A stretch of DNA of 64,000 nt from a virus. The stretch spans positions 42,949-106,948 of the IMG/VR virus record IMGVR_UViG_3300028394_000050, one strand, 5' to 3'. The notes under the pieces were generated by a model. The model saw nothing but the letters and a program-made list of their open reading frames with translations. It was not told the DNA's origin and searched no databases. Of the stretch, positions 5,921-51,674 are shown piece after piece (positions within the stretch are counted from its first letter, which is position 1; every line of letters begins with the position of its first letter). Made by a program: the position numbers and the translations under genes.

Positions 5921-6145
5921 TCAAGCCTCGTTTAGAAGCTCAGCCGAACCGCGAACCTGCTCACCGATAGTGCCAGGTGCATTGACGAAGCCCATAAGAA
6001 CTTCGGCCTTCTTGATAACATCATTGACTGTGGGATATTTTGCTGTGGCGTCACGCTTCATTTCCTGACCTAGAAGATATTCTTGGTCGCACATAGTCTG
6101 TGCCATCTGAAGAACATTGAAGCGGAGCATCTTATCGTCGTTCAT
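5921..6145 (-). CDS. conserved hypothetical protein (74 aa)
   Basis: Start at ATG 6145 with a strong GAGGTG 7 nt upstream. It begins MNDDKMLRFNVLQMAQTMCD and reads as a small all-helical soluble protein. It is the first gene downstream of the tmRNA and precedes tRNA-Gln. No family assigned. Confidence 0.65.
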   Translation of the reverse strand: MNDDKMLRFNVLQMAQTMCDQEYLLGQEMKRDATAKYPTVNDVIKKAEVLMGFVNAPGTIGEQVRGSAELLNEA

Positions 6146-6171
6146 AATTTTCACCTCTCTAATAGTGTTAG

Positions 6172-6495
6172 TGGGGGGATTCTGTTTCCACGTTCCCCCC
6201 GAACGCATTCTTAGGCTGCTAGAGCATAAGAGATAGGTGCATTATCGTTAGCATCTAAAACGCGCCTCGGTCTACTCGTACCTTTACTACTATCTGTCGA
6301 ACCTATATCGCCCCCATCAAAGATACACTAATCTACACAACAAGCTGGAGCATTTATCTCTTCATGCTTTAGAACTTGTTTGGCGGTAGAACTCTTATAA
6401 AGGATCGTCTTTATTAGTGTATCCATGGTGGAGGCGTCGGGTACTGCCCCCGAGTCCAAATGGTTTATTCCGAACGTCTCAACAACCTTAGCGTA
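6172..6495 (-). ncRNA. ssrA: circularly permuted (two-piece) tmRNA
   Basis: Reading the minus strand, the acceptor piece comes first and ends at 6426 with a T-arm TCGGG-GGCAGTA-CCCGA, then CGCCTCC and ACCA. A 110-nt intervening segment (6316-6425) follows, closed by a perfect 11-bp stem (6413-6423 with 6322-6332). The coding piece then starts at 6315 with GGGGGCG, which pairs with CGCCTCC as acceptor stem. The resume codon is GCT at 6252, and the tag frame 6252-6211 encodes ANDNAPISYALAA then TAA. Tags ending ALAA mark stalled products for 3'-to-5' proteolysis. The T-arm and permutation are signatures of alphaproteobacterial ssrA. Outer ends are approximate; the coding piece probably ends near the GGGGGG/CCCCCC hairpin at ~6172-6202. 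Confidence 0.93.
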
Positions 6496-6630
6496 TTATT
6501 TATAATACATGGAAAGAGGGTGTTTGTCAAGCAGATAATTTCTGGCTGATGCTTCTGACCAATTGTTGATGCAGATATATCGTGGGCAATCCCAGTAGAT
6601 AAAAACCCACGAGCTATAATGCTCACCCAT
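6496..6630 (-). CDS. possible small protein (44 aa) upstream of tmRNA
   Basis: ATG at 6630 overlaps the previous gene stop by 8 nt; the reading frame ends with TAA inside the tmRNA promoter region. The product is aromatic-rich (SSWVFIYWDCPRYICIN). Sharing bases with a strong promoter makes coding status uncertain. Confidence 0.35.
   Translation of the reverse strand: MGEHYSSWVFIYWDCPRYICINNWSEASARNYLLDKHPLSMYYK
6502..6530 (-). promoter_or_regulatory. tmRNA promoter
   Basis: TTGACA (6525-6530), 17-nt spacer, TATTAT (6502-6507), overlapping a TATAAATA box at 6497-6504. The start point would be near 6495, just before the acceptor piece. Confidence 0.8.
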
Positions 6631-10935: not shown

Positions 10936-12993
10936 TTACTTGCTGTTGGTACGGAATACGCCATCCCAATCCTTAGGTAGGGGATTCTTTTTATAGTCCT
11001 CCACGCGCTCTTTCATCATTCCATAATATTCTCTTAGTTCATCATTGAATGCTGGTTCAAGCACATGGAAATAATTTTCCAATTGGTGCCATTCCTGTGC
11101 GCGATAGTATTTGATGAAGTCTGCGTGTGTGCGAGCATACGCTTTGTTGATACCAATCTTTTCAACGATGGTGTATATCTTCACACCTTCGCTCTTACCT
11201 TTCACAGCAAGGCAATCAAGTTCCACGCATAGATATTCATCCTTCACATATTCATAAGTCTTAGGACCAATTACCATCTTCACATGATATGGCTTGCTCT
11301 GCCCTTCCAAGCGCGATGCTAGATTGACAGTATCACCGAGGCAAGTATAATCAAAGCGTTGACTACTACCCATATTGCCAACCACAACGGAGCCTGTGTT
11401 AATCCCAAGACCCATACCAAAGGGTGGAACACCCTCAGTGGCGATCTCTTTGTTAAATCGTTCCAAATCATCTAGCATCTCCAATGCTGTTTTAACTGCG
11501 TGTTTCGCATGGTCCGCATCATCAAGTGGTGCATTCCAAAATGCCATCTGCGCGTCACCGATATACTTATCTAGTGTGCCATCGTTCTGAATTATCTTAG
11601 CCGTCATCGCTGTCATGTAGCGATTCATTATTTTCGTAAGGCCCTGTACGTCATTACCGTAATGTTCAGAGATAGTCGTAAAGCCCCTAACGTCAGTAAA
11701 CATGATAGATAGCTCACGGGTCTCTCCTCCCAAGCACAATAGTTCTGGGTTCTTCTGTAGTTTCTCGACCAGTGCAGGTGAAAGGTAAGTACCGAACTGC
11801 TTTTTAATTTGTTGCTTTAGTCTAAACTCGCGAGCGAAATTGTTGAATACCAAGTGCCCATATACAACAGTTATAGACAATACGATATAGCTTGCGTCCC
11901 ATAGTTGTAGCTCTGTTTTGAATAAATAATAACTCGCTGCTGATAATCCAACCACAATGAAAGCGTAGAATGGAACTGTCATCACTACCGTCAGTCTTGG
12001 AACTATATGGAGCAATAGTAGTAGCATGGTGGTTAGTAGTGCTCCTTCTATTAGCCTTCCTACGTTGGGGCGAGAAATAGAAGTTCCGTCTACCAGTGTT
12101 TGGAGTGTCTGCGCTTGAATCTCATGGGCCCACTTCTCACCGATTGGTGTTGCTATGATACCACCAACGCCTTCAATCGTTAGACCAAGAATAACAATCT
12201 TGTCCTTCACGCGAGCGTCTATCTCGGTTGCTTCTAGCGTATCAAATTTGGTATTCCAAGATAACCAGATGCGCCCGCGCTCGTCGGTTGAGATTGGTGG
12301 AAAAGCTGGGACTCTTACAGCTTCTATTCCACCTTCGTTCGTCTTAACTTGAAAGCTAGGGTCTCCAGCAGCGACACGAATGGTCTCCAAAGGAATGCTA
12401 GGATAAAGACCAGATGCAATATTGACAAGTAGAGGCATACGGCGAACCACACCGTCCAATTCAGAGATTGTTGCGACCACACCAACGCCTGAGGCAACTT
12501 CGGCATACTTGTCAAGAGGGCGTAATCCACCAGGCCAACGATAGACAACCCTAGCAGGATCAACAGGACCGATAGCAGCGAACCCACGACGAACCGAGTC
12601 GGGCTTACTGTTTTGAGTAGTAGGTGTTTGTGCGAGGACAACACCTTCAAGAGTTTTTGCCAGTTCATCATCGCCACCTGCTCTGTCTTTTTCAGAGAAT
12701 AGAATAGGCGCAACGATTACCGAAGCGCCGTTCTCTTTTAGTTTATTGATTGTCTTTGCGATATCTCGTCTGTCAAATGGCCACTGACCAAACTTCTCAA
12801 CCGACTTCTCACCAAAGTTAACAATTACAATCTCTTCTGATTGTTTCTTCTCCAGAGAAGTGATAAGATAATCAAAGGTCTTTAGCTGAAGCGTTTGAAT
12901 CGCGCTTGGGTTGATTGCATACAATGTCAACAGGAGACAGGCGCTGATAGCAACCATCCATGTGCTTGTAAGAAACTTGACTAGCTTTTCCAT
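10936..12993 (-). CDS. CHASE2-domain class III adenylate cyclase
   Basis: 685 aa. An N-terminal signal/TM segment is followed by a CHASE2 extracytoplasmic sensor (~25-320, with IVNFGEKSVEKFGQWPFDRR and DKIVILGLT). Three TM helices follow (~325-400, e.g. TTMLLLLLHIVPRLTVVMTV). The cytoplasmic class III cyclase domain (~415-620) has both metal aspartates (SIMFTDVRGFTT and LDKYIGDAQMAFW), the adenine-selecting Lys of LDKYIGD, and the Asn/Arg pair in GDTVNLASRLEG. It should make cAMP and appears catalytically intact. It is the last gene of the curli-like operon, overlapping the small curlin gene stop as TGATG. In bacteria CHASE2 cyclases often neighbour FecR-domain proteins, as here. I know of no described phage example. 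Confidence 0.92.
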   Translation of the reverse strand: MEKLVKFLTSTWMVAISACLLLTLYAINPSAIQTLQLKTFDYLITSLEKKQSEEIVIVNFGEKSVEKFGQWPFDRRDIAKTINKLKENGASVIVAPILFSEKDRAGGDDELAKTLEGVVLAQTPTTQNSKPDSVRRGFAAIGPVDPARVVYRWPGGLRPLDKYAEVASGVGVVATISELDGVVRRMPLLVNIASGLYPSIPLETIRVAAGDPSFQVKTNEGGIEAVRVPAFPPISTDERGRIWLSWNTKFDTLEATEIDARVKDKIVILGLTIEGVGGIIATPIGEKWAHEIQAQTLQTLVDGTSISRPNVGRLIEGALLTTMLLLLLHIVPRLTVVMTVPFYAFIVVGLSAASYYLFKTELQLWDASYIVLSITVVYGHLVFNNFAREFRLKQQIKKQFGTYLSPALVEKLQKNPELLCLGGETRELSIMFTDVRGFTTISEHYGNDVQGLTKIMNRYMTAMTAKIIQNDGTLDKYIGDAQMAFWNAPLDDADHAKHAVKTALEMLDDLERFNKEIATEGVPPFGMGLGINTGSVVVGNMGSSQRFDYTCLGDTVNLASRLEGQSKPYHVKMVIGPKTYEYVKDEYLCVELDCLAVKGKSEGVKIYTIVEKIGINKAYARTHADFIKYYRAQEWHQLENYFHVLEPAFNDELREYYGMMKERVEDYKKNPLPKDWDGVFRTNSK

Positions 12994-45169: not shown

Positions 45170-45336
45170 GTTATAAGCAAGGGTGCGTATCTCCTACGCT
45201 TGCCTGCTGCCCCTTTACAGCTCCCTCAAACGAAGGATTCTCTGGTTAGTGAGAACCCATGAGGCGAGAACTTTTCGGATCGTAGCGGAACCACCCGCAG
45301 TCGATTTCTTCCAACTAAAGTTTCTCGGTCCATTCT
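45170..45336 (-). other. structured spacer in tRNA array
   Basis: 167 nt between tRNA-Ser(TGA) and tRNA-Trp without a convincing reading frame. It holds a GCAA/TTGC plus GCGTA/TACGC hairpin at 45177-45203 and a long stem CGAGAA/TTCTCG with flanking CTTT/AAAG (45265-45275 with 45317-45327). Possibly a small RNA or processing element. Confidence 0.4.
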
Positions 45337-45410
45337 TGGCACCGGTGCTAGGAGTTGAACCCAGGCCCTCAGTTTTGGAGACTGATGTGCTACCGTAACA
45401 CTTCACCGAT
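45337..45410 (-). tRNA. tRNA-Trp (CCA)
   Basis: 74 nt with encoded 3' CCA; acceptor ATCGGTG/CACCGGT, anticodon stem TCAGT/ACTGA around CTCCAAA, G73. Confidence 0.9.
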
Positions 45411-45421
45411 AATTAGCAACC

Positions 45422-45429
45422 TATTTATA
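45422..45429 (-). promoter_or_regulatory. TATAAATA late-promoter box between tRNAs
   Basis: T4 late consensus between tRNA-Ser(GCT) and tRNA-Trp, 11 nt upstream of the latter. Similar boxes lie at 46521-46528 and 47666-47673. Confidence 0.4.
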
Positions 45430-45430
45430 A

Positions 45431-45520
45431 TGGCGGAGAGTGTGAGATTCGAACTCACGGAAGATTTTCACCTTCGCTCATTTAGCAAACGAGTGCTTTA
45501 GGCCACTCAGCCAACTCTCC
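45431..45520 (-). tRNA. tRNA-Ser (GCT)
   Basis: 90 nt with CCA and long variable arm; acceptor GGAGAGT/ACTCTCC, loop TTGCTAA. Its first 14 nt overlap the 3' end of the GATase-like CDS, whose TGA stop lies in the D-arm. Confidence 0.93.
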
Positions 45521-46154
45521 AAAGTCTATTCACAAAATCTAGTAGCAACTGGTGATGTTTACCATCGTGCCAATATCCATCAAGATACTGATAAGGACTC
45601 TCATACCAAAATTCCTCACTCTCAGGATGGCAACCAATCAGACCAAGATTGCCTTGAATGATTGCCATCGGTTCATCGTTAGCATATTTGGCAATAGTAT
45701 CATAATATCCGCTGCCTGTAAAGACACAACCGTCATAGAAGAACATCTTTTCTTTTTGACCAAGCCATTCAATATCAGCAACCGTACCATAGCTTCGGCG
45801 TATCTCAGCCGTTGGTCGCTTGATATATTGAACAGCGTCTATCCCATCAAGAAAATCAAAATATCTAGAACCAGCCCAATAAGCACCCATGCAAATGCCG
45901 ATATACCTACCACCTCTATCAAGAAACGCTGCGATTTTGTTAGCTTTAGAACGTGTAAAGAAATCGTGATAACTGTCACTGTCGCCAATGCCGCCAGGGA
46001 AAACAATTCCATCCACATCATTTAGTACCTCATCAAGATCATCTTGAATTGTAAACAGCTTCACTTCATATTGCGAAGATAACGCTCTTATTATCCCATT
46101 ACAACACTCAATAGAGCATTCTGGTTGGTGATTAAAAAGAGCAATCTTTTTCAT
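45507..46154 (-). CDS. class I glutamine-amidotransferase-like (BPL_N-type) protein
   Basis: 215 aa. DGIVFPGGIGDSDSYHDFF, then GGRYIGICMGAYWAGSRYFD with the nucleophile elbow G-x-C-x-G, and a C-terminal GCHPESEEFW, resemble the BPL_N/GATase1 fold. The H-P-E end motif supports a catalytic triad. Substrate unknown. The stop codon is inside tRNA-Ser(GCT). A late TATAAATA box lies 50 nt upstream. Confidence 0.77.
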   Translation of the reverse strand: MKKIALFNHQPECSIECCNGIIRALSSQYEVKLFTIQDDLDEVLNDVDGIVFPGGIGDSDSYHDFFTRSKANKIAAFLDRGGRYIGICMGAYWAGSRYFDFLDGIDAVQYIKRPTAEIRRSYGTVADIEWLGQKEKMFFYDGCVFTGSGYYDTIAKYANDEPMAIIQGNLGLIGCHPESEEFWYESPYQYLDGYWHDGKHHQLLLDFVNRLWRVG

Positions 46155-46203
46155 ATATTTATTTCCTATTTGAATAAATTATTCTAAATAGCGTCGTGCG
46201 AAA

Positions 46204-46211
46204 TATTTATA
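46204..46211 (-). promoter_or_regulatory. TATAAATA late-promoter box for the GATase-like gene
   Basis: T4 late consensus on the minus strand, 50 nt before ATG 46154. On the plus strand the same bases give TATAAT-like text upstream of the 46237 gene. Confidence 0.5.
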
Positions 46212-46236
46212 ATGATTCATATTATAGGAAAAAATC

Positions 46237-46470
46237 ATGACCGAGAAGCTTTTTGAAGAAATCAGTAATCGTGTAGATAAGATCCAATCCAAAATTGACT
46301 TTCTTAATGAACTTGAAATGAGAATTGATACAATCCTAGGCAATCTTACCGAAGAGCCAGAAGACGAAGAAGAAGATGACGAAGATGACGAAGAAGATGA
46401 CGAAGGCGATGTTCTTCTCACTGGTCTAAAAGATTTGGTAGCTAACACTTCATTCACATATACCGAATAA
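46237..46470 (+). CDS. acidic small protein (77 aa)
   Basis: N-terminal coiled coil (LFEEISNRVDKIQSKIDFLN), then an Asp/Glu run (EPEDEEEDDEDDEEDDEG). AGGA 9 nt before the ATG and a terminator just after the stop support a real plus-strand gene. Could bind basic proteins or mimic DNA; unknown. Confidence 0.65.
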   Translation: MTEKLFEEISNRVDKIQSKIDFLNELEMRIDTILGNLTEEPEDEEEDDEDDEEDDEGDVLLTGLKDLVANTSFTYTE

Positions 46471-46491
46471 ATTTACCTTACATGAAGTAGA

Positions 46492-46521
46492 GGAGCGGAT
46501 CCGAAGTTCGCTCCTTTTTTT
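46492..46521 (+). terminator. rho-independent terminator
   Basis: GGAGCG (46492-46497) pairs with CGCTCC (46509-46514), followed by seven Ts, 22 nt after the acidic gene stop. Confidence 0.88.
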
Positions 46522-46528
46522 ATTTATA
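46521..46528 (-). promoter_or_regulatory. TATAAATA box downstream of tRNA-Phe
   Basis: T4 late consensus 1 nt after the CCA end of tRNA-Phe; overlaps the plus-strand terminator tail. No minus-strand gene follows closely, so use is doubtful. Confidence 0.3.
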
Positions 46529-46529
46529 A

Positions 46530-46605
46530 TGGTGCCGTCTCTTGGTTACGCTCCAAGCTCTCTTGCTCTTCAGGCAGGCGCTTTCACTAGATTAGCTTAG
46601 ACGGC
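46530..46605 (-). tRNA. tRNA-Phe (GAA), degenerate D- and T-loops
   Basis: 76 nt with CCA. Acceptor GCCGTCT/AGACGGC is perfect; anticodon stem CCTGC/GCAAG (one mismatch) around CTGAAGA; T-stem CTTGG/CCAAG. The T-loop AGCGTAA lacks TTC and the D-loop lacks GG, so standard tRNA finders may miss it. Confidence 0.72.
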
Positions 46606-46609
46606 AAGT

Positions 46610-46706
46610 ATATAGTTGGTAAGAGCGAACCTTACCACGCAGTACCACCACACTCGCTTTGTGACCGTGAACCTGGGAGGGTGATCCAAACGCCGCGAGA
46701 CTATAT
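46610..46706 (-). other. stem-closed element between tRNA-Phe and tRNA-Met
   Basis: 97 nt closed by ATATAGT/ACTATAT (46610-46616 with 46700-46706), whose end abuts the CCA of tRNA-Met. An inner 6-bp hairpin GGTAAG/CTTACC with a 7-nt loop is at 46618-46636. No coding frame is supported. Confidence 0.45.
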
Positions 46707-46781
46707 TGGTTGCAGAGGGTGGAATTGCACCACCGGCCTTTTGGGTATGAACCAAACGAGCTACTACTGCTCCACTCTGCT
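46707..46781 (-). tRNA. tRNA-Met (CAT) with 1-72 mismatch
   Basis: 75 nt with CCA; acceptor 2-7 pair but A1 faces A72, as initiator tRNAs are unpaired there. D-stem GAGC/GCTC, loop TTCATAC, T-stem GGTGG/CCACC with odd T-loop TGCAATT; D-loop lacks GG. Initiator identity is possible, but the GGG/CCC anticodon stem is absent. Confidence 0.75.
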
Positions 46782-46786
46782 TCAAT

Positions 46787-46862
46787 TGGTGCCGAAAACT
46801 GGACTTGAACCAGTGACCATACCCGTATGAAGGGTGCGCTCTACCAACTGAGCTACATCGGC
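46787..46862 (-). tRNA. tRNA-Met or tRNA-Ile2 (CAT)
   Basis: 76 nt with CCA; canonical D-arm (TAGCTCAGTTGGTAGAGC) and T-loop TTCAAGT; loop TTCATAC. Three CAT tRNAs in one phage suggest initiator, elongator and lysidine-modified Ile forms. Confidence 0.88.
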
Positions 46863-46870
46863 AAACTGTT

Positions 46871-46947
46871 CCCACCGTTAACTGGCTCCATAAGCGCCAC
46901 GGGTTTGTTTTACATCGGCTGCCGCACGGTGGGCACACGGTCCGATG
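46871..46947 (-). other. possible pseudoknotted element between tRNA-Met and tRNA-Tyr
   Basis: Two interleaved stems: CCCACCGT/ACGGTGGG (46871-46878 with 46926-46933) and CATCGG/CCGATG (46913-46918 with 46942-46947). The order a-b-a'-b' is that of an H-type pseudoknot. Confidence 0.45.
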
Positions 46948-46951
46948 GTAG

Positions 46952-47045
46952 TGGTGGGTGAGGTAGGAGTCGAACCTACATTGTTTACCACATAGGGACC
47001 GGATTTACAGTCCGGGGATGCACACGCCATAGCATCAACTCACCC
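46952..47045 (-). tRNA. tRNA-Tyr (GTA)
   Basis: 94 nt with CCA and long variable arm; acceptor GGGTGAG/CTCACCC, anticodon stem CCGGA/TCCGG around CTGTAAA. Confidence 0.93.
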
Positions 47046-47052
47046 AATTCTT

Positions 47053-47469
47053 TTATACTTGAACCCAGACTTGACCTTCAAGCCACGCTACAACCTCGTC
47101 ACGCACGGCTTTTACCGCATCTGGCTTCATAAACTTTTCAATTTTTCCATGCTCATATTTGATGACCATTGAAACAATACGAGGCAAAATATACGTCTTG
47201 AACGTACCATTATCTTTACGACAATGTTCTACCGTTTTGTAAATTCGCCCTTCTATGTATGCGCGAGCGAGAAGAGTAGCACGAGCTTCATTGCGAACAT
47301 CAAAACGACGATGGCTATTCAATGACTCCCACATAAAACGAACTTTAGTCTCGTCCTTTTGGTGTGTCTTGAGCCATTCAATCTGGCGCTTGAGTTTCTG
47401 TTCCTCGAACCGAATGACGCCAGCTTCCAATGCGAGATGTTTAGACTTGATCTTTAACTTGATAGACAT
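47053..47469 (-). CDS. basic hypothetical protein (138 aa)
   Basis: Lys/Arg-rich helical protein (KIKSKHLALEAGVIRFEEQK, RRFDVRNEARATLLARAYIE). No family recognised. Own promoter at 47494-47522. Located inside the tRNA array. Confidence 0.65.
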   Translation of the reverse strand: MSIKLKIKSKHLALEAGVIRFEEQKLKRQIEWLKTHQKDETKVRFMWESLNSHRRFDVRNEARATLLARAYIEGRIYKTVEHCRKDNGTFKTYILPRIVSMVIKYEHGKIEKFMKPDAVKAVRDEVVAWLEGQVWVQV

Positions 47470-47493
47470 GTTGGTTTCCTTATTGATGTTAAC

Positions 47494-47522
47494 ATTATAC
47501 GATAGTGATTATTCAAAGTCAA
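47494..47522 (-). promoter_or_regulatory. sigma70-type promoter
   Basis: TTGACT (47517-47522), 17-nt spacer, TATAAT (47494-47499), 25 nt before the 47469 start. Confidence 0.75.
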
Positions 47523-47590
47523 TAAGAAAATTCATGGGGGACGAAAAACCTACAGAAAAAATACCTTCATGTTATTACTCCATTATCAGT

Positions 47591-47665
47591 TGGTGATCCT
47601 AACGGGACTTGAACCCGTATTCGATGTTTTAGAGACACCCGCATAGCCAGTCATGCTCTAGGATC
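47591..47665 (-). tRNA. suppressor tRNA (CTA anticodon, reads UAG)
   Basis: 75 nt with CCA. Acceptor GATCCTA/TAGGATC, D-stem GCAT/ATGC with GG in loop, anticodon stem GGTGT/ACATC around CTCTAAA, T-stem ACGGG/CCCGT around TTCAAGT. T33 and A37 are canonical, so the anticodon is CTA, an amber reader. Position 8 is G rather than T. The amino acid charged cannot be judged. Confidence 0.85.
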
Positions 47666-47673
47666 TATTTATA
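47666..47673 (-). promoter_or_regulatory. TATAAATA box between tRNA-His and suppressor tRNA
   Basis: T4 late consensus lying directly against the 5' end of the suppressor tRNA; either a late promoter or a recurrent spacer. Confidence 0.35.
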
Positions 47674-47674
47674 T

Positions 47675-47750
47675 TGGCACTACCTCCAAGATTCGAACTT
47701 GAACTCCGGCGTCCACAACACCGGGTGCTTACCAATTACACTAAGGTAGC
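47675..47750 (-). tRNA. tRNA-His (GTG)
   Basis: 76 nt with CCA; acceptor GCTACCT/AGGTAGT, anticodon stem CGGTG/CGCCG around TTGTGGA, T-loop TTCGAAT. Residue -1 is T, not the usual G. Its first 15 nt are shared with the 3' end of the oxygenase CDS. Confidence 0.88.
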
Positions 47751-48332
47751 ATAGTGCTTCTGAATAAGATTCATATTTGTTGTCACTGCCACACGATCTT
47801 TATCGGTTTGATTGTGCGACACTTGATGAACTAGCCACCCAGGAAACATAATCATCTGTCCAGCTTTTGGCTTATAGTTGAACACATTATAATGTTTAGG
47901 ATTAAGACTAATCCAACCTAACGTCGATCTAGGATCGAGTAGTCGAATGATCCCACCTTTATCTCCTACATCCACATAATAAGTGGCTGCAATCGTAGTC
48001 ATTCGATGACTATGAAATCTATATTCTTGCCCATATTTACAAAAATTAATCCACCCTCTAGCATGTCTAAAGAAATCTGGTTTATATTCCATCTCAAAAA
48101 ATTCAGTTGCATATTTGGCAGCAGATTCCAAAAAGAAATCATGAAGAATATTTATACCTTCATTATATCTATGACTCCAGATATTTCTGTCTTGTGAATA
48201 CTCAAAAGTATCTGAACCATTTTGCTCAGCAACACCTTTGAGATTGCCATCTAAAATAATTTTATTGATTCTTTCAAAATCTGGCAAATCAAAAATTGCT
48301 ACTGGTGTTGAAAACAAATTTAATTTCTGCAT
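47736..48332 (-). CDS. 2OG-Fe(II) oxygenase (phage type)
   Basis: 198 aa. An N-terminal LFSTPVAIFDLPDFERIN is typical of phage/cyanobacterial oxygenases. YRFHSHRMTTIAATYYVDVG gives the iron His, GGIIRLLDPRS the next strand, and AGQMIMFPGWLVHQVSHNQT the distal His; VAVTTNMNL follows. The stop TAA lies in the D-loop region of tRNA-His. Confidence 0.82.
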   Translation of the reverse strand: MQKLNLFSTPVAIFDLPDFERINKIILDGNLKGVAEQNGSDTFEYSQDRNIWSHRYNEGINILHDFFLESAAKYATEFFEMEYKPDFFRHARGWINFCKYGQEYRFHSHRMTTIAATYYVDVGDKGGIIRLLDPRSTLGWISLNPKHYNVFNYKPKAGQMIMFPGWLVHQVSHNQTDKDRVAVTTNMNLIQKHYATLV

Positions 48333-48347
48333 GATATACCTTTAAAT

Positions 48348-48424
48348 TGGTGCCCGTAGTAGGACTCGAACCTACAACATTCGGAGTTTGAAACCGACGC
48401 CTCTTCCAGTTGGACTATACGGGC
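48348..48424 (-). tRNA. tRNA-Leu (CAA)
   Basis: 77 nt with CCA; acceptor GCCCGTA/TACGGGC, loop TTCAAAC, short variable arm like the other phage Leu tRNAs. Its T8-A9-G10 forms the stop codon of the upstream CDS. Confidence 0.87.
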
Positions 48425-48873
48425 CTGTTATTCCACGGATTCATACTAATTGCAAATCGTGTACCTGTGTAATCATACACAGCATGGTAAATGTCAGAAG
48501 AGAACATGACCAACCTATTTGTCTTAGGCGTACATCGAAAACTCTCGGACGTGAAATCACCACCTTGCATGTTTTCGATGTGTGCGTAGTACACGATGCT
48601 CACAGCAGGAAATATCAGTTCCTCTGTTCGCTTATATATGTACTCATCGTGGTCAAAATGCCAACCAACGGCTTTTTGATTGACCCACATTTCATAACCA
48701 GTTGTCTGCGATAGATCAAAATGCTCCTTCGCGATATCGAGGATCTTTTCATGCAATGGGCTAACGCCGTAATCGTACCAACGCTGTGGCATTGGCGGAC
48801 CATAATCAAACGCTTTCAACTGTTCCAGTATAACAGGATCAAACACATTGTCAAGCACGATCATCTTTTGCAT
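48415..48873 (-). CDS. prolyl-hydroxylase-like 2OG-Fe(II) oxygenase
   Basis: 152 aa. KAVGWHFDHDEYIYKRTEEL carries the H-x-D pair, IVYYAHIENMQGGDFTSESF the central strands, and NRLVMFSSDIYHAVYDYTG the distal His. The 2OG-binding Arg is likely in RFAISMNPW. The TAG stop is formed by tRNA-Leu(CAA) bases 8-10. Confidence 0.82.
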   Translation of the reverse strand: MQKMIVLDNVFDPVILEQLKAFDYGPPMPQRWYDYGVSPLHEKILDIAKEHFDLSQTTGYEMWVNQKAVGWHFDHDEYIYKRTEELIFPAVSIVYYAHIENMQGGDFTSESFRCTPKTNRLVMFSSDIYHAVYDYTGTRFAISMNPWNNRPV

Positions 48874-48888
48874 AATGCATCCTTATAT

Positions 48889-48965
48889 TGGTGCCCCTGG
48901 AGAGATTCGAACTCCCACCACCCGGAACCTAAATCCGGTGCCTCTACCAGTTGGACTACAGGGGC
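48889..48965 (-). tRNA. tRNA-Leu (TAG)
   Basis: 77 nt with CCA; acceptor GCCCCTG/CAGGGGC, anticodon stem CCGGA/TCCGG around TTTAGGT. Its T8-A9-G10 is the stop codon of the radical-SAM CDS. Confidence 0.9.
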
Positions 48966-49918
48966 AAAACTATTTGCTTATTCGCTTTAATATCCGAAGG
49001 ACATGTACAGCGATGTCTAGGACAGATTATATAGTCATCAAATAATTCAAAATTATCAATCTTTCCTAATAATTTTGAACCACACACTCCAGCAAAAACA
49101 TCACCGGAATATGAAGCATGAATGGATTCCGACCCAACATGGCATTTCCATCCTTCGAAATTGTGCCAATTATTCAGCGTTATAAGTCCAAGTTTCATTG
49201 CTGAGATAGTTGACCCATCAGAAAAGATCATTTTAGGGTTAGACCTAGTTTCTCTTTTTTTGTTATTTGCAATATAATCTTCATATTTTTTTAATGTGTC
49301 TGATATCCAGTTATATTGTTCCCTGCTGTATCTATAAGTCGTGCGATTTATTTTATCGTTTTTATCCCAATGCTGCAAGACTTTTGGAGTAACAAAAACT
49401 TTAAACTCGTCATCTAATTCATCATATAAAGCCATTGCTTTTTCCCAATTATTAGGATCACACGATAGATTGTACCTCAAGTTAGTTCCACTATCTATAA
49501 TAATTCTTGAGAGACTATTGACCTTATTAGATTTTGTGAACTCTGGATGAAGAGATAACTGAACGGCTGAAATAGGAAGGATACTTTTCCAAAAATCATT
49601 TCCTCGCGAACCATTGGTCGTTATACACAATATGCATTTATCACGCAATCTGGAAACAATGTAGGGTAGCATAGGATGCAAAGTTGGTTCTCCGCCACTT
49701 AACACAACATCAAGTCTGCGAGTTTTAGCCAACTCTTCAAGCTTATCAACAAATGCTATTATCTGTTCGTCAGTAGGAAATCCTTGCGATACACCTTTGT
49801 GATATTCACCACTATGAAGAAAAGATGGACAATAGTTGCAACTAAAATTGCAGAAATCTGTGAGTGTCCAATAAACAGATAGTTCTGGTTCTTTACAAAA
49901 GACTGCAACAGGCTGCAT
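48956..49918 (-). CDS. radical SAM protein
   Basis: 320 aa from ATG 49918 (GAAGGA 6 nt upstream; codons further up run into tRNA-Asp). LTDFCNFSCNYCPSFLHSGE has the CxxxCxxC cluster, DVVLSGGEPTLHP the GGE motif, and ILCITTNGSRG follows. C-terminal cysteines (GWKCHVG, FAGVCGSK, ICPRHRCTCP) suggest a SPASM-like auxiliary cluster. Substrate unknown. TAG stop within tRNA-Leu(TAG). Confidence 0.87.
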   Translation of the reverse strand: MQPVAVFCKEPELSVYWTLTDFCNFSCNYCPSFLHSGEYHKGVSQGFPTDEQIIAFVDKLEELAKTRRLDVVLSGGEPTLHPMLPYIVSRLRDKCILCITTNGSRGNDFWKSILPISAVQLSLHPEFTKSNKVNSLSRIIIDSGTNLRYNLSCDPNNWEKAMALYDELDDEFKVFVTPKVLQHWDKNDKINRTTYRYSREQYNWISDTLKKYEDYIANNKKRETRSNPKMIFSDGSTISAMKLGLITLNNWHNFEGWKCHVGSESIHASYSGDVFAGVCGSKLLGKIDNFELFDDYIICPRHRCTCPSDIKANKQIVLPL

Positions 49919-49938
49919 ATATGATCCTTCATTTTTTA

Positions 49939-50013
49939 TGGCGCTCTTGAAGGGAATCGAACCCTCCTCACCCCTTAGACAGAGGGGTCGCTTCACCAGA
50001 TGCGTACAAGAGC
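49939..50013 (-). tRNA. tRNA-Asp (GTC)
   Basis: 75 nt with CCA; acceptor GCTCTTG/CAAGAGC, anticodon stem CCCCT/AGGGG around CTGTCTA, G73. Confidence 0.92.
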
Positions 50014-50182
50014 AAATTTCGGTACTGGTTACTGCCATCCAGCGTTGCCTTTTCGCGCAACAGGTTCTGAGACAAGACGGTCCAAGTAACTCGGTCTCTT
50101 CAGGCGGCCGCAGCCTATATCCACCAAGGCCGCTTGAACCCAGGTTAGGTGGTGACGCAAAGGATCTCATCCCTTCGAATTA
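50014..50182 (-). other. structured spacer between tRNA-Asp and tRNA-Thr
   Basis: 169 nt with no supported frame. Hairpins GTTGC/GCAAC (50044-50061) and GCGGCC/GGCCGC (50104-50109 with 50128-50133). The closing stem is weaker than in the other spacers. Confidence 0.35.
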
Positions 50183-50258
50183 TGGTGCCCCCACGAAGAT
50201 TCGAACTCCGGACCTACTGATTACAAATCAGTTGCTCTACCAGCTGAGCTATAAGGGC
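50183..50258 (-). tRNA. tRNA-Thr (TGT)
   Basis: 76 nt with CCA; loop TTTGTAA, canonical D-arm; acceptor GCCCTTA/TGGGGGC with G-U pairs. Confidence 0.92.
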
Positions 50259-50267
50259 AAAACTAGA

Positions 50268-50311
50268 GGGATGGTGTTGTGTACACAGGCCTCGCCAAAC
50301 CACACCATCCC
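50268..50311 (-). repeat. inverted repeat between tRNA-Thr and tRNA-Arg
   Basis: GGGATGGTGT (50268-50277) pairs perfectly with ACACCATCCC (50302-50311); the loop contains the palindrome GTGTACAC. Confidence 0.6.
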
Positions 50312-50321
50312 ATACGCGATA

Positions 50322-50398
50322 TGGAGTCCCGTGAGGGAGTCAAACCCCCAACCTTCGGTTTCGTAGACCGATGCTCTATTCAGTTGAGCTAACGAGAC
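50322..50398 (-). tRNA. tRNA-Arg (ACG)
   Basis: 77 nt with CCA; acceptor GTCTCGT/ACGGGAC, loop CTACGAA, T-loop TTTGACT; D-loop lacks GG. A34 would need inosine editing to read all CGN codons. Confidence 0.87.
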
Positions 50399-50406
50399 AA
50401 ATTGAA

Positions 50407-50513
50407 TTCAGGATCTTGACTAGATGCAACCTATGGTTAGGATTTATCGGGTCGCCCAGCATCTTGCTGCCATTCACAGTAGGTAACCATTTGCTTCTAC
50501 TGTTAGTCCTGAA
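50407..50513 (-). other. stem-closed element between tRNA-Arg and tRNA-Ala
   Basis: 107 nt closed by TTCAGGA/TCCTGAA (50407-50413 with 50507-50513), one base from the CCA of tRNA-Ala. On the minus strand inner stems include ACAGTAG/CTACTGT, AGATGC/GCATCT and CCTA/TAGG. No coding frame is supported. Confidence 0.5.
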
Positions 50514-50514
50514 A

Positions 50515-50590
50515 TGGTGGAGGTAGCCAGAATCGAACTGACGACATCCTGCTTGCAAAGCAGGCGCTCTCCCAACTGAGCTATACCCCC
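50515..50590 (-). tRNA. tRNA-Ala (TGC)
   Basis: 76 nt with CCA; anticodon stem CCTGC/GCAGG around TTTGCAA. Abuts tRNA-Val with no spacer. Confidence 0.93.
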
Positions 50591-50665
50591 TGGTAGTCCG
50601 TGACGGGATTGAACCGCCGACCTTCGCCGTGTAAAAGCGTTGCTCTACCGCTGAGCTAACGGACC
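50591..50665 (-). tRNA. tRNA-Val (TAC)
   Basis: 75 nt with CCA; loop TTTACAC; its CCA end at 50591 touches G1 of tRNA-Ala. Confidence 0.92.
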
Positions 50666-50675
50666 GTGAATGAGA

Positions 50676-50787
50676 AGAAGAGGCGTTCCCAGCATTAGGG
50701 ATACTTGAATACCATCGCACGACCAATGGGATGTTCTCTCGGTGTTCGTGAAACAAGCTATGAAGCTCCACCGATACCGCCTCTTCT
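50676..50787 (-). other. stem-closed element between tRNA-Val and tRNA-Asn
   Basis: 112 nt closed by a perfect 10-bp stem AGAAGAGGCG/CGCCTCTTCT (50676-50685 with 50778-50787), 3 nt from the CCA of tRNA-Asn. An inner stem TCGGTG/CACCGA is visible on the minus strand. Confidence 0.5.
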
Positions 50788-50790
50788 AAT

Positions 50791-50866
50791 TGGCTCCTCG
50801 ACCTGGGCTCGAACCAGGGACATTCTGATTAACAGTCAGACGCTCTACCAACTGAGCTATCGAGAA
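50791..50866 (-). tRNA. tRNA-Asn (GTT)
   Basis: 76 nt with CCA; acceptor TTCTCGA/TCGAGGA, loop CTGTTAA, G73. Confidence 0.93.
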
Positions 50867-50912
50867 TCAAACTATAATAACAACGAATGCTATTATAGTT
50901 TATATATGCATT

Positions 50913-50987
50913 TGGTTGGGACAGCTGGATCCGAACCAGCGACCTAACGCTTATCAAGCGTTTGCTCTACCACTGAGCTATGCCCCA
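50913..50987 (-). tRNA. tRNA-Ile (GAT)
   Basis: 75 nt with CCA; acceptor TGGGGCA/TGTCCCA, loop TTGATAA, T-loop TTCGGAT. Confidence 0.9.
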
Positions 50988-50992
50988 TCATT

Positions 50993-51068
50993 TGGTGAAC
51001 CATGCAGGGATCGAACCTGCGACAAAGAGATTAAGAGTCTCCTGCTCTACCAGCTGAGCTAATGGTCC
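50993..51068 (-). tRNA. tRNA-Lys (CTT)
   Basis: 76 nt with CCA; loop CTCTTAA, canonical arms. Five nucleotides from tRNA-Ile. Confidence 0.93.
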
Positions 51069-51073
51069 TAAAT

Positions 51074-51150
51074 TGGTCGGAGATGCAGGATTCGAACCTG
51101 CGACCCTCGCGTCCCAAACGCGATGCTCTACCAGACTGAGCCAATCTCCG
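51074..51150 (-). tRNA. tRNA-Pro (TGG)
   Basis: 77 nt with CCA; acceptor CGGAGAT/ATCTCCG typical of Pro, loop TTTGGGA. Confidence 0.93.
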
Positions 51151-51152
51151 AA

Positions 51153-51352
51153 AACTGATTAGGCATGGTGTTATGTTATGGATATGGATAGACTGTCATA
51201 CCGTTCGCTTTAATCTGTAACCTTATGCGTGGGAGCAACCCCACTTTTCAGTTACAACTCAGTTTATGCCGTGCCTGCAGGACAGAGGGCTCCAGGGACT
51301 GTGCGCTGCCCAGGAACACTGGGATTTTCCATAACACCATACCTAATCAGTT
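51153..51352 (-). other. 200-nt element closed by a 23-bp stem (candidate structured RNA)
   Basis: Arms at 51153-51175 and 51330-51352 are reverse complements with one mismatch. Inside are hairpins GTGGG/CCCAC and CCCAG/CTGGG and a TGTAAC/GTTACA stem. No convincing reading frame. It sits 2 nt from tRNA-Pro and shares 3 nt with the next element. Confidence 0.6.
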
Positions 51353-51452
51353 GTTTCTTCTAAAAGAGCTATCTTGCATACCCCATACGAGATATCTTGT
51401 AGCTGCCACTAACGATGTGGCAGCATCGCATAGCTCTTTTAGAAGAAACAAC
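51350..51452 (-). other. 103-nt element closed by a perfect 23-bp stem
   Basis: Arms 51350-51372 and 51430-51452 are perfect reverse complements. The loop contains a 7-bp hairpin CTGCCAC/GTGGCAG. Located near the 5' end of the transcript from the promoter at 51557-51585. Confidence 0.65.
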
Positions 51453-51556
51453 CGTTACACCCACGATGGGGTAAGAATCCCTACTCTAAAAGCAGGAATC
51501 CCCGGCGTTTCTTTTTCTTTACCAGCAATGTCAAACAGCGTATTCTCTATTCTTAT
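51453..51556 (-). other. leader region of tRNA array, no gene seen
   Basis: Region between the array promoter and the stem-closed elements. No ribosome-binding site or supported frame; a GGG-ATTCTTA-CCC stem is visible. Confidence 0.35.
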
Positions 51557-51585
51557 ATAGTAGCATATTGGCACTCTTTTGTCAA
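51557..51585 (-). promoter_or_regulatory. sigma70-type promoter of the tRNA array
   Basis: TTGACA (51580-51585), 17-nt spacer, TACTAT (51557-51562), between tRNA-Glu and the stem-closed elements; points into the Pro-Lys-Ile-Asn run. Confidence 0.78.
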
Positions 51586-51596
51586 CCATTCTTTTT

Positions 51597-51674
51597 TGGT
51601 CCTCCGTATCGGATTTGAACCGATGATCTCCGCGCTTGAAAGGCGGGTATGTTGGACCGCTACACCAACGGAGG
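51597..51674 (-). tRNA. tRNA-Glu (TTC)
   Basis: 78 nt with CCA; acceptor CCTCCGT/ACGGAGG, D-stem GTGT/ACAT, A26, anticodon stem CCCGC/GCGCG (one C-C mismatch) around CTTTCAA. A one-base shifted reading would give TCA, but the loop and A26 favour TTC. Confidence 0.83.

Follow-up and report, generated by a model that had tools for sequence, protein, structure and literature searches.

Structured RNA elements in a phage tRNA array, among them a candidate partner RNA of Ro60-like proteins

Phage tRNA arrays are usually taken as lists of tRNA genes with empty spacers. In the DNA analysed here, a 64,000-nt window from a 107-kb IMG/VR virus contig, the spacers between the tRNA genes at 45170-51596 hold conserved RNA elements 44-190 nt long. 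As judged from the sequence, they comprise eight or more unrelated elements, all on the minus strand and thus in the same orientation as the tRNAs. One of them (50407-50513) leads to an RNA class that occurs in dozens of phages, cultured ones included, and for which there is a candidate protein partner. In the explanation that we favour, and to which we give about an even chance, the gaps would be genes for several unrelated small structured noncoding RNAs (ncRNAs) carried as exchangeable cassettes, and the class of 50407-50513 would be Ro-binding and Y-like.

The gaps are noncoding and modular

ARAGORN reported 29 tRNAs and a permuted transfer-messenger RNA (tmRNA) in the window, every one on the minus strand. 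A further tRNA at 46533-46605, overlooked by this program, was detected with Rfam (39.2 bits), and the related contig L003 has a tRNA-Phe(gaa) at the matching place. Because all tRNAs and the tmRNA lie on the minus strand, this strand was used for reading the gaps. An earlier note on this DNA had described the gaps between the tRNAs as neither tRNA nor coding, and this was borne out: the open reading frames (ORFs) that overlap them also traverse tRNAs, and the indels among relatives are not multiples of three. These two properties, and not substitution rates, are the basis of the noncoding assignment.

With Rfam 15, at gathering and at permissive thresholds, the only credible families found were tRNA and tmRNA. 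Matches to miRNA, plastid, sX4 and L20-leader models were dropped, being under the cut-off and mostly antisense or overlapping with tRNAs. In a BLAST search of 50,697 phages the window elements had no match. Type III toxin-antitoxin RNAs were considered and set aside, as there are no tandem repeats.

Contigs that share the array were found through protein-based scans. Between near-identical phages the Asn-Val gap measures 125 or 7 nt, the Ala-Arg gap 116 or 3 nt, the Val-Ala gap 0 or 88 nt and the Ile-Asn gap 46 or 19 nt. Since whole elements thus come and go between the same two tRNAs, we regard them as units, or cassettes. The diverged contig L007 retains five of the window elements, some of them beside other tRNAs, and has extra new ones.

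A widespread RNA class

The strongest finding concerns

50407..50513, minus strand: class member after tRNA-Ala with closing stem P1, helices P2, P3, P3b and P4 and a loop-loop pseudoknot; core at 50421-50465

It is missing from L004 and has homologues in L003, L007, L030 and L039. Over these five contigs, the window's included, five helices are kept despite sequence change, and the loop-loop pseudoknot is re-paired (ATGGTT/AACCAT, ATGGGT/ACCCAT, CTGAGA/TCTCAG). In the window copy all pairs form in P1 (7/7), P2 (7/7) and the pseudoknot (6/6).

The core TGCTGGNAAANCCGNTAAAT occurs in 84 stretches of viral contigs, where by our own estimate from the size of the collection roughly seven would be expected. 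Six of the 52 distinct core matches were judged to be chance or coding (L062, L070, L096, L100, L107, L128), which leaves 46 sites. Among the 43 sequences that were aligned, 89.4% of the cells are paired and 63 are double-changed, as against 20.2 in shuffles; the covariation score is 0.347 (0.118 in shuffles, 0/500 as high; slid controls at most 0.097), to be read with the provisos that positions prescribed by the probe are invariant by design, that rows needed a GCA partner for P3, that odd members were excluded and that kinship among the sequences inflates the scores. The covariation that is free of probe bias is carried by pair 11-15 in P3b, with four pair types and none broken, by pair 4-44 in P3 and by the P4 pairs. 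MAFFT did not align P2 correctly in the diverged members, so hand inspection and permutation were used to verify P1, P2 and the pseudoknot; permuting the P2-loop against the P4-loop regions lowered the pairing of the pseudoknot in each of 500 trials.

The window copy departs from the probe, with CGA instead of AAA. A model made without the window, L003, L007 and L097 still finds it (31.1 bits, E 2.5e-5), the next match in the window having an E-value of 0.5. The element at 50407-50513 thus belongs, as a diverged representative, to a widespread and apparently undescribed phage RNA class. Rfam 15 holds no matching model, no description was found in the literature searched, which did not cover preprints, and BLAST with the class core gave no match in E. 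coli genomes.

Three cultured phages carry the RNA. Pseudomonas phage Astolliot was an untrained match (57.3 bits); its copy lies unannotated between tRNA-Leu and tRNA-Glu, at about 65.1-65.2 kb of the record, and has a core pair of P3b swapped from GG..CC to GC..GC; a Ro-like protein is encoded at 74152-75531 of this phage. In Synechococcus phage BUCT-ZZ01, likewise untrained (56.1 bits), the RNA lies beneath a small 'hypothetical protein'. Agrobacterium phage Atu_ph07 was itself a training member, recognised through a 100% match. Its RNA lies between genes; TTGACA stands upstream of it and a run rich in U follows the closing stem, both seen by eye and not reported by the consensus scan.

The class is associated with tRNA genes: at 34 of the 46 sites a tRNA is no more than 400 nt away, which holds for 30.7% of positions drawn at random from the same loci. 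The tRNAs near class sites are co-oriented in 81 cases and opposite in 0. Three members (L061, L064, L104) resemble a tRNA with the core in place of the anticodon arm, as seen by eye and in minimum free energy (MFE) folds.

Association with Ro-like genes

In four contigs (L039, L048, L094, L117) a Ro60-like (DUF2828/TROVE-type) gene is followed at 60-70 nt by an RNA of the class, whose core starts 66-71 nt past the stop codon. The product of the L048 gene combines DUF2828 and DUF7788 and falls into PHROG 850, 'RNA-binding protein'; mycobacteriophage relatives of this protein carry the annotation 'Ro-like RNA binding protein'. Where the RNA and a Ro-like gene both occur, they are nearer to each other than random positions (P 1.4e-5, or 6e-4 when three short contigs are left out). 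Atu_ph07, counted among the carriers through the TROVE model (E 3e-34), is an exception, with the two 204 kb apart. Of the RNA-bearing records that reach 30 kb, 12 of 32 contain a Ro-like gene, and of all phage records 673 of 50,697 do. This base rate of 1.3% takes no account of genome size or tRNA content, so that the enrichment derived from it is an upper estimate.

The unmatched base rate is one of several points that weigh against a partnership with Ro. Most RNA-bearing records have no Ro-like gene; none is recognisable in the window contig, itself a 107-kb fragment, or in L007 (168 kb), both of which carry the RNA. A Ro-like gene without a match to the class model, R1, was seen in the phages Munch and RHph_TM30. 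The Rfam Y_RNA and YrlA models fail at 50407-50513 (E up to 5), on L048 (E up to 10) and on other members (E up to 0.5). Finally, the link covers one element only, the others being without a known partner.

Ro60 proteins bind Y RNAs, and a Y-like role is therefore favoured for the class, which we regard as a candidate phage Y-like RNA. Most likely its pseudoknotted core would bind a Ro60/TROVE-type protein, encoded by the phage in many relatives and perhaps by the host otherwise. The RNA could then act as Y RNAs do, as scaffold or gate of a particle for RNA quality control or repair during infection; docked on the Ro-type protein, it would govern the access of damaged tRNA or rRNA. The broader proposal, that an undescribed ncRNA class of tRNA-rich phages is the partner of phage Ro60/TROVE-like proteins and is made in boxA-antiterminated tRNA operons, is more tentative, and we consider it somewhat on the doubtful side.

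A comparably tentative alternative is that the elements are stable trans-acting ncRNAs of the kind of T4 RNAC and RNAD with a partner other than Ro, and that Ro-like genes merely travel in the same cargo region. As decoys they might divert defence enzymes that cut tRNAs, or they might bind RNases, ribosomes or tRNA enzymes of the host. In agreement with this they lie in a tRNA operon, like RNAC and RNAD, a Ro-like gene is missing from most RNA-bearing records, and in three tRNA-like members the core seems to replace the anticodon arm. The direct adjacency to the Ro-like gene in four contigs and the overall clustering of the two speak for the Ro partner instead.

The head of the array

The upstream end of the array (51151-51590) contains, in the direction of reading,

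51557..51585, minus strand: sigma70-like promoter TTGACA-17-TACTAT (10/12 in the consensus scan, TG ahead of the second hexamer)
51522..51539, minus strand: boxA-like site GCTGTTTGACATTGCTGG, the sole exact GCTGTTTGACATTG in the window
51452..51511, minus strand: leader motif GAAAC..GGGGATTC-hairpin-GATTCTTACCCC..GTAACGG, from the leader comparison
51350..51452, minus strand: near-invariant leader hairpin RNA of about 103 nt, a long stem bearing two hairpins
51157..51348, minus strand: closed-stem RNA of about 190 nt ahead of tRNA-Pro, 19-bp closing stem (0/400 shuffles)

The earlier note had treated 51153-51452 as a single gap element. It comprises two separate RNAs, with the sigma70-like promoter and the boxA-like site ahead of them.

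A promoter-like sequence is present at the same position in L019, L022, L024, L026 and L027. L019 was reached by scanning for the element after tRNA-Tyr, and the window's leader precedes its tRNA-Pro as well. The boxA-like site stands upstream of the leader hairpin in every contig that reaches that far, except L021. In other phages a simple GAAACAATCGAAAGGTTGTTTC hairpin takes the place of the leader motif.

As an exact 20-mer the phage boxA was found in none of 84,980 prokaryote genomes, and alphaproteobacterial rRNA leaders were therefore taken from megaplasmids. The leaders of Paracoccus, Microvirga, Sphingobium and Sulfitobacter match the box at 14-15 of 18 positions (0-1 of 1000 shuffles), 187-248 nt ahead of the 16S gene. 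That of Methylobacterium has only the 11-nt core of the site, and in those of Ensifer, Azospirillum and Acinetobacter a convincing boxA-like match was not found. The absence of the match from two of the seven alphaproteobacterial leaders, and its unconvincing form in one, weaken the comparison. In E. coli, boxA is necessary and sufficient to recruit the rRNA antitermination complex (PMC10250234). From the similarity we infer that the array may use boxA antitermination in the style of rRNA operons. Transcription would begin near 51550 and proceed leftward through the leader RNAs, the tRNAs and the small genes, with the boxA-like site recruiting host antitermination factors of the NusB/S10 type. 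If true, an rRNA-type boxA at its head would explain how a long, poorly translated tRNA operon escapes Rho.

The relatives of the leader hairpin are 15 contigs matching a 19-nt probe, so that the probe bases are identical by construction and the other ~84 nt are not. The hairpin has 41 pairs, 3 of them with compensatory changes, and its variation is confined to the open end; it is near-invariant although the adjoining tRNAs differ. Several contigs stop within it, as would be expected if assemblers break at sequence common to co-occurring phages. As an exact 30-mer it was found in none of the 84,980 prokaryote genomes. A likeness by eye to a Cas9 repeat (GAGCTATGC) was dropped, as the bulges differ; no cas context was looked for. 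The ~190-nt RNA has 54 consensus pairs over four sequences, 6 with compensatory change.

Other elements and their closing stems

The remaining elements are

50868..50902, minus strand: AT-rich 15-bp hairpin in the tRNA-Ile/tRNA-Asn gap (0/400 shuffles)
50676..50787, minus strand: closed-stem element with a 10-bp stem in the tRNA-Asn/tRNA-Val gap, in L003 and not in L004
50268..50311, minus strand: 10-bp closed hairpin with conserved loop GGCGAGGCCTGTGTACACA, the same in the window, L003, L004 and L007
50014..50182, minus strand: multi-helix element ahead of tRNA-Asp with conserved GGGTTCAAGC, kept in L003, L004 and L007
46871..46947, minus strand: H-type pseudoknot element after tRNA-Tyr, CATCGG/CCGATG and CCCACCGT/ACGGTGGG
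46610..46706, minus strand: closed-stem element after tRNA-Met, 7-bp stem (P 0.06), also in L003
45170..45336, minus strand: row of hairpins in the tRNA-Trp/tRNA-Ser gap; the L007 homologue retains GGGGCAGCAGGCAAG

The hairpin at 50868-50902 is missing from L004, where the gap has 19 nt, and the L007 copy of 50268-50311 has different neighbours. The element at 50014-50182, which was absent from the earlier list, has 47 consensus pairs, 3 with compensatory change and 4 broken. For 46871-46947 five sequences gave 98.9% paired cells with one compensatory pair, two that vary through G-U and one break, so covariation is weak here. A possible pseudoknot (ATCACC/GGTGGT) was seen in 46610-46706, which has no diverged homologue. 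Between 45170-45336 and L007 a hairpin is re-paired from GCGTA/TACGC to TAGC/GCTA.

Closing stems were assessed as the best end-to-end stem of each gap against 400 dinucleotide shuffles, all on the minus strand:

46606-46706: 7 bp, P 0.06
46863-46951: 8 bp, P 0.018, in reality one arm of the pseudoknot
50259-50321: 10 bp, P 0.005
50399-50514: 7 bp, P 0.06
50666-50790: 10 bp, P 0.0025
50867-50912: 15 bp, 0/400
51151-51348: 19 bp, 0/400
51349-51453: 24 bp, 0/400

Thus the inverted repeats that were said to close the elements exist in most gaps, in several beyond shuffles; in 45170-45336, the row of hairpins, no closing stem was found (P 0.98). MFE z-scores are modest for most gaps (+0.4 to -2.9), the leader region (-6.8) and the Ile-Asn hairpin (-5.2) being lower. 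Weak z-scores are expected where pseudoknots dominate, and comparison with relatives therefore decides. In the related phages the stems are kept.

Further elements were noticed in the relatives. At L004:8396-8749 the Thr-Asp gap has 354 nt, compared with 169 nt in the window, and holds an extra element with a 16-bp closing stem and two tRNA-like T arms. An element of ~143 nt (GTGGTAAG..CTGCCAC) is common to L019:4470-4610 and L030:8259-8401 and includes GGAGTAATTAACC, a motif that also lies inside the L004 insert with its stem re-paired. The pseudoknot-like GTGTGGTTRCTGGTGACAC..AGGAACC recurs in several tRNA arrays, that of the window not among them (L007:8400-8549, L007:8712-8937, L030:8478-8704, L039:13658-13778). 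Two short hairpins ahead of tRNA-Ser (L003:8806-9025, L022:3860-3919) have wholly different stems that are nevertheless paired. After tRNA-Val, L039:13854-13945 is a closed-stem element with the hammerhead-like pieces CTGACGAG and ACGAAAG; with only 12.4 bits to the hammerhead model, hammerhead identity is not claimed.

Further features of the window concern its tRNAs and neighbouring genes. Two tRNAs, at 47591-47665 and 51597-51674, have the anticodons CTA and TCA; ARAGORN names them Pyl and SeC, and they are candidate stop-codon suppressors. The tmRNA (6120-6518, tag ANDNAPISYALAA) is of the permuted, two-piece alphaproteobacterial type, and a two-piece tmRNA has been reported for phage Melnitz (PMC9004378). 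The contig is a distant relative of Methylophilales phage Melnitz and Pelagibacter phage HTVC008M (~43% identity in one protein), and a gene for a CHASE2 and adenylate/guanylate cyclase protein at 10936-12993 (Pfam E 3e-40 and 1e-22) is common to both. A strong terminator-like hairpin on the plus strand (46489-46517) stands behind a small acidic plus-strand reading frame and points at the tRNA array.

What the elements may be

The gaps had been proposed to form one family. This did not hold, for they are of at least eight unrelated kinds that differ in fold and sequence. Of the roles suggested for them, new small RNAs agree best with the findings at the sequence level, the elements being conserved, covarying, modular and without an Rfam 15 match. 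Guides for tRNA processing found no support. Dumbbells that protect against RNases would suit no more than the long leader hairpin and, loosely, the closing stems, since conservation extends to inner loops and pseudoknots and so shows the interior to be important.

Apart from the class, the most suitable view of the elements is that they are stable RNAs independent of one another, of the kind of T4 RNAC and RNAD, which have been observed on Northern blots and to which no function is assigned (PMC9697503). Each element, that of the class included, would be released by tRNA end-processing, with RNase P cutting at the 5' end of the next tRNA and 3' trimming of the previous one, and the closing stem or pseudoknot would shield the freed element, as for RNAC and RNAD.

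Alternatively, the elements could act in cis on tRNA maturation, possibly by self-cleavage that frees the neighbouring tRNA, as theta ribozymes do in gut phages (PMC10879173). Many of them begin 0-4 nt past a tRNA 3' end, and conserved pseudoknotted cores are typical of ribozymes. Yet the spacing from the tRNA end is not constant, the class has a nested P1 as its closing helix in place of the P1/P2 pseudoknot of HDV, and no HDV-like or hammerhead match was obtained with the Rfam models, no dedicated descriptor being used. Moreover, 12 of the 46 sites are more than 400 nt from any tRNA, and the Atu_ph07 copy resembles a stand-alone gene. We consider a cis-acting role improbable.

Least probable of all is that the gaps are nonfunctional insertions or tRNA debris folding by chance, as the modest z-scores of several elements, the T arms in the L004 insert and the lack of diverged homologues for 46610-46706, 50676-50787 and 50868-50902 might suggest: compensatory changes occur in the class core, the ~190-nt RNA, the leader hairpin and 50014-50182, the leader hairpin hardly varies beside differing tRNAs, and the class has dozens of members in diverse phages, so that for 50407-50513 and 51157-51452 this explanation is already contradicted.

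Genes for ncRNAs in exchangeable cassettes, one of them probably Ro-binding, thus remain our preferred explanation. It makes two questions accessible at the bench: what small phage RNAs such as RNAC and RNAD do, and which RNA the phage Ro-like proteins bind.

Comparison with known systems

GOLLD and ROOL are structured phage RNAs beside tRNA islands, also without known function (PMC12286853). They have hundreds of nucleotides, compared with 44-190 nt here, and their Rfam models were not matched; the earlier note had rightly set the elements apart from them. Theta (HDV-like) ribozymes are small pseudoknotted RNAs at the 3' ends of phage tRNAs (PMC10879173), but the class has a different fold, a variable spacing and no HDV-like match in Rfam.

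The boxA-like GCTGTTTGACATTG behind a putative promoter that heads a mostly untranslated operon recalls the leader of rRNA operons, a likeness seen with some of the alphaproteobacterial leaders compared. The window operon would drive phage tRNAs and small RNAs and no rRNA.

T4 RNAC and RNAD are small stable RNAs (139 and 119 nt) within the T4 tRNA cluster, one of them adjoining a tRNA. Their sequence and fold appear to differ from those of the elements, and T4 has two of them, whereas the window array has many exchangeable cassettes. The T4 genome gave no match to R1, the class element being the only one compared with it.

Y RNA and YrlA, finally, differ from the class in that its core is pseudoknotted, has no Rfam match and occurs in many carriers without a recognisable Ro gene. 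Like them, the class has ends that form a closing stem, some of its members have a tRNA-like body, and in four contigs, not including the window contig, L007 or Atu_ph07, its gene lies directly behind that of a Ro-like protein.

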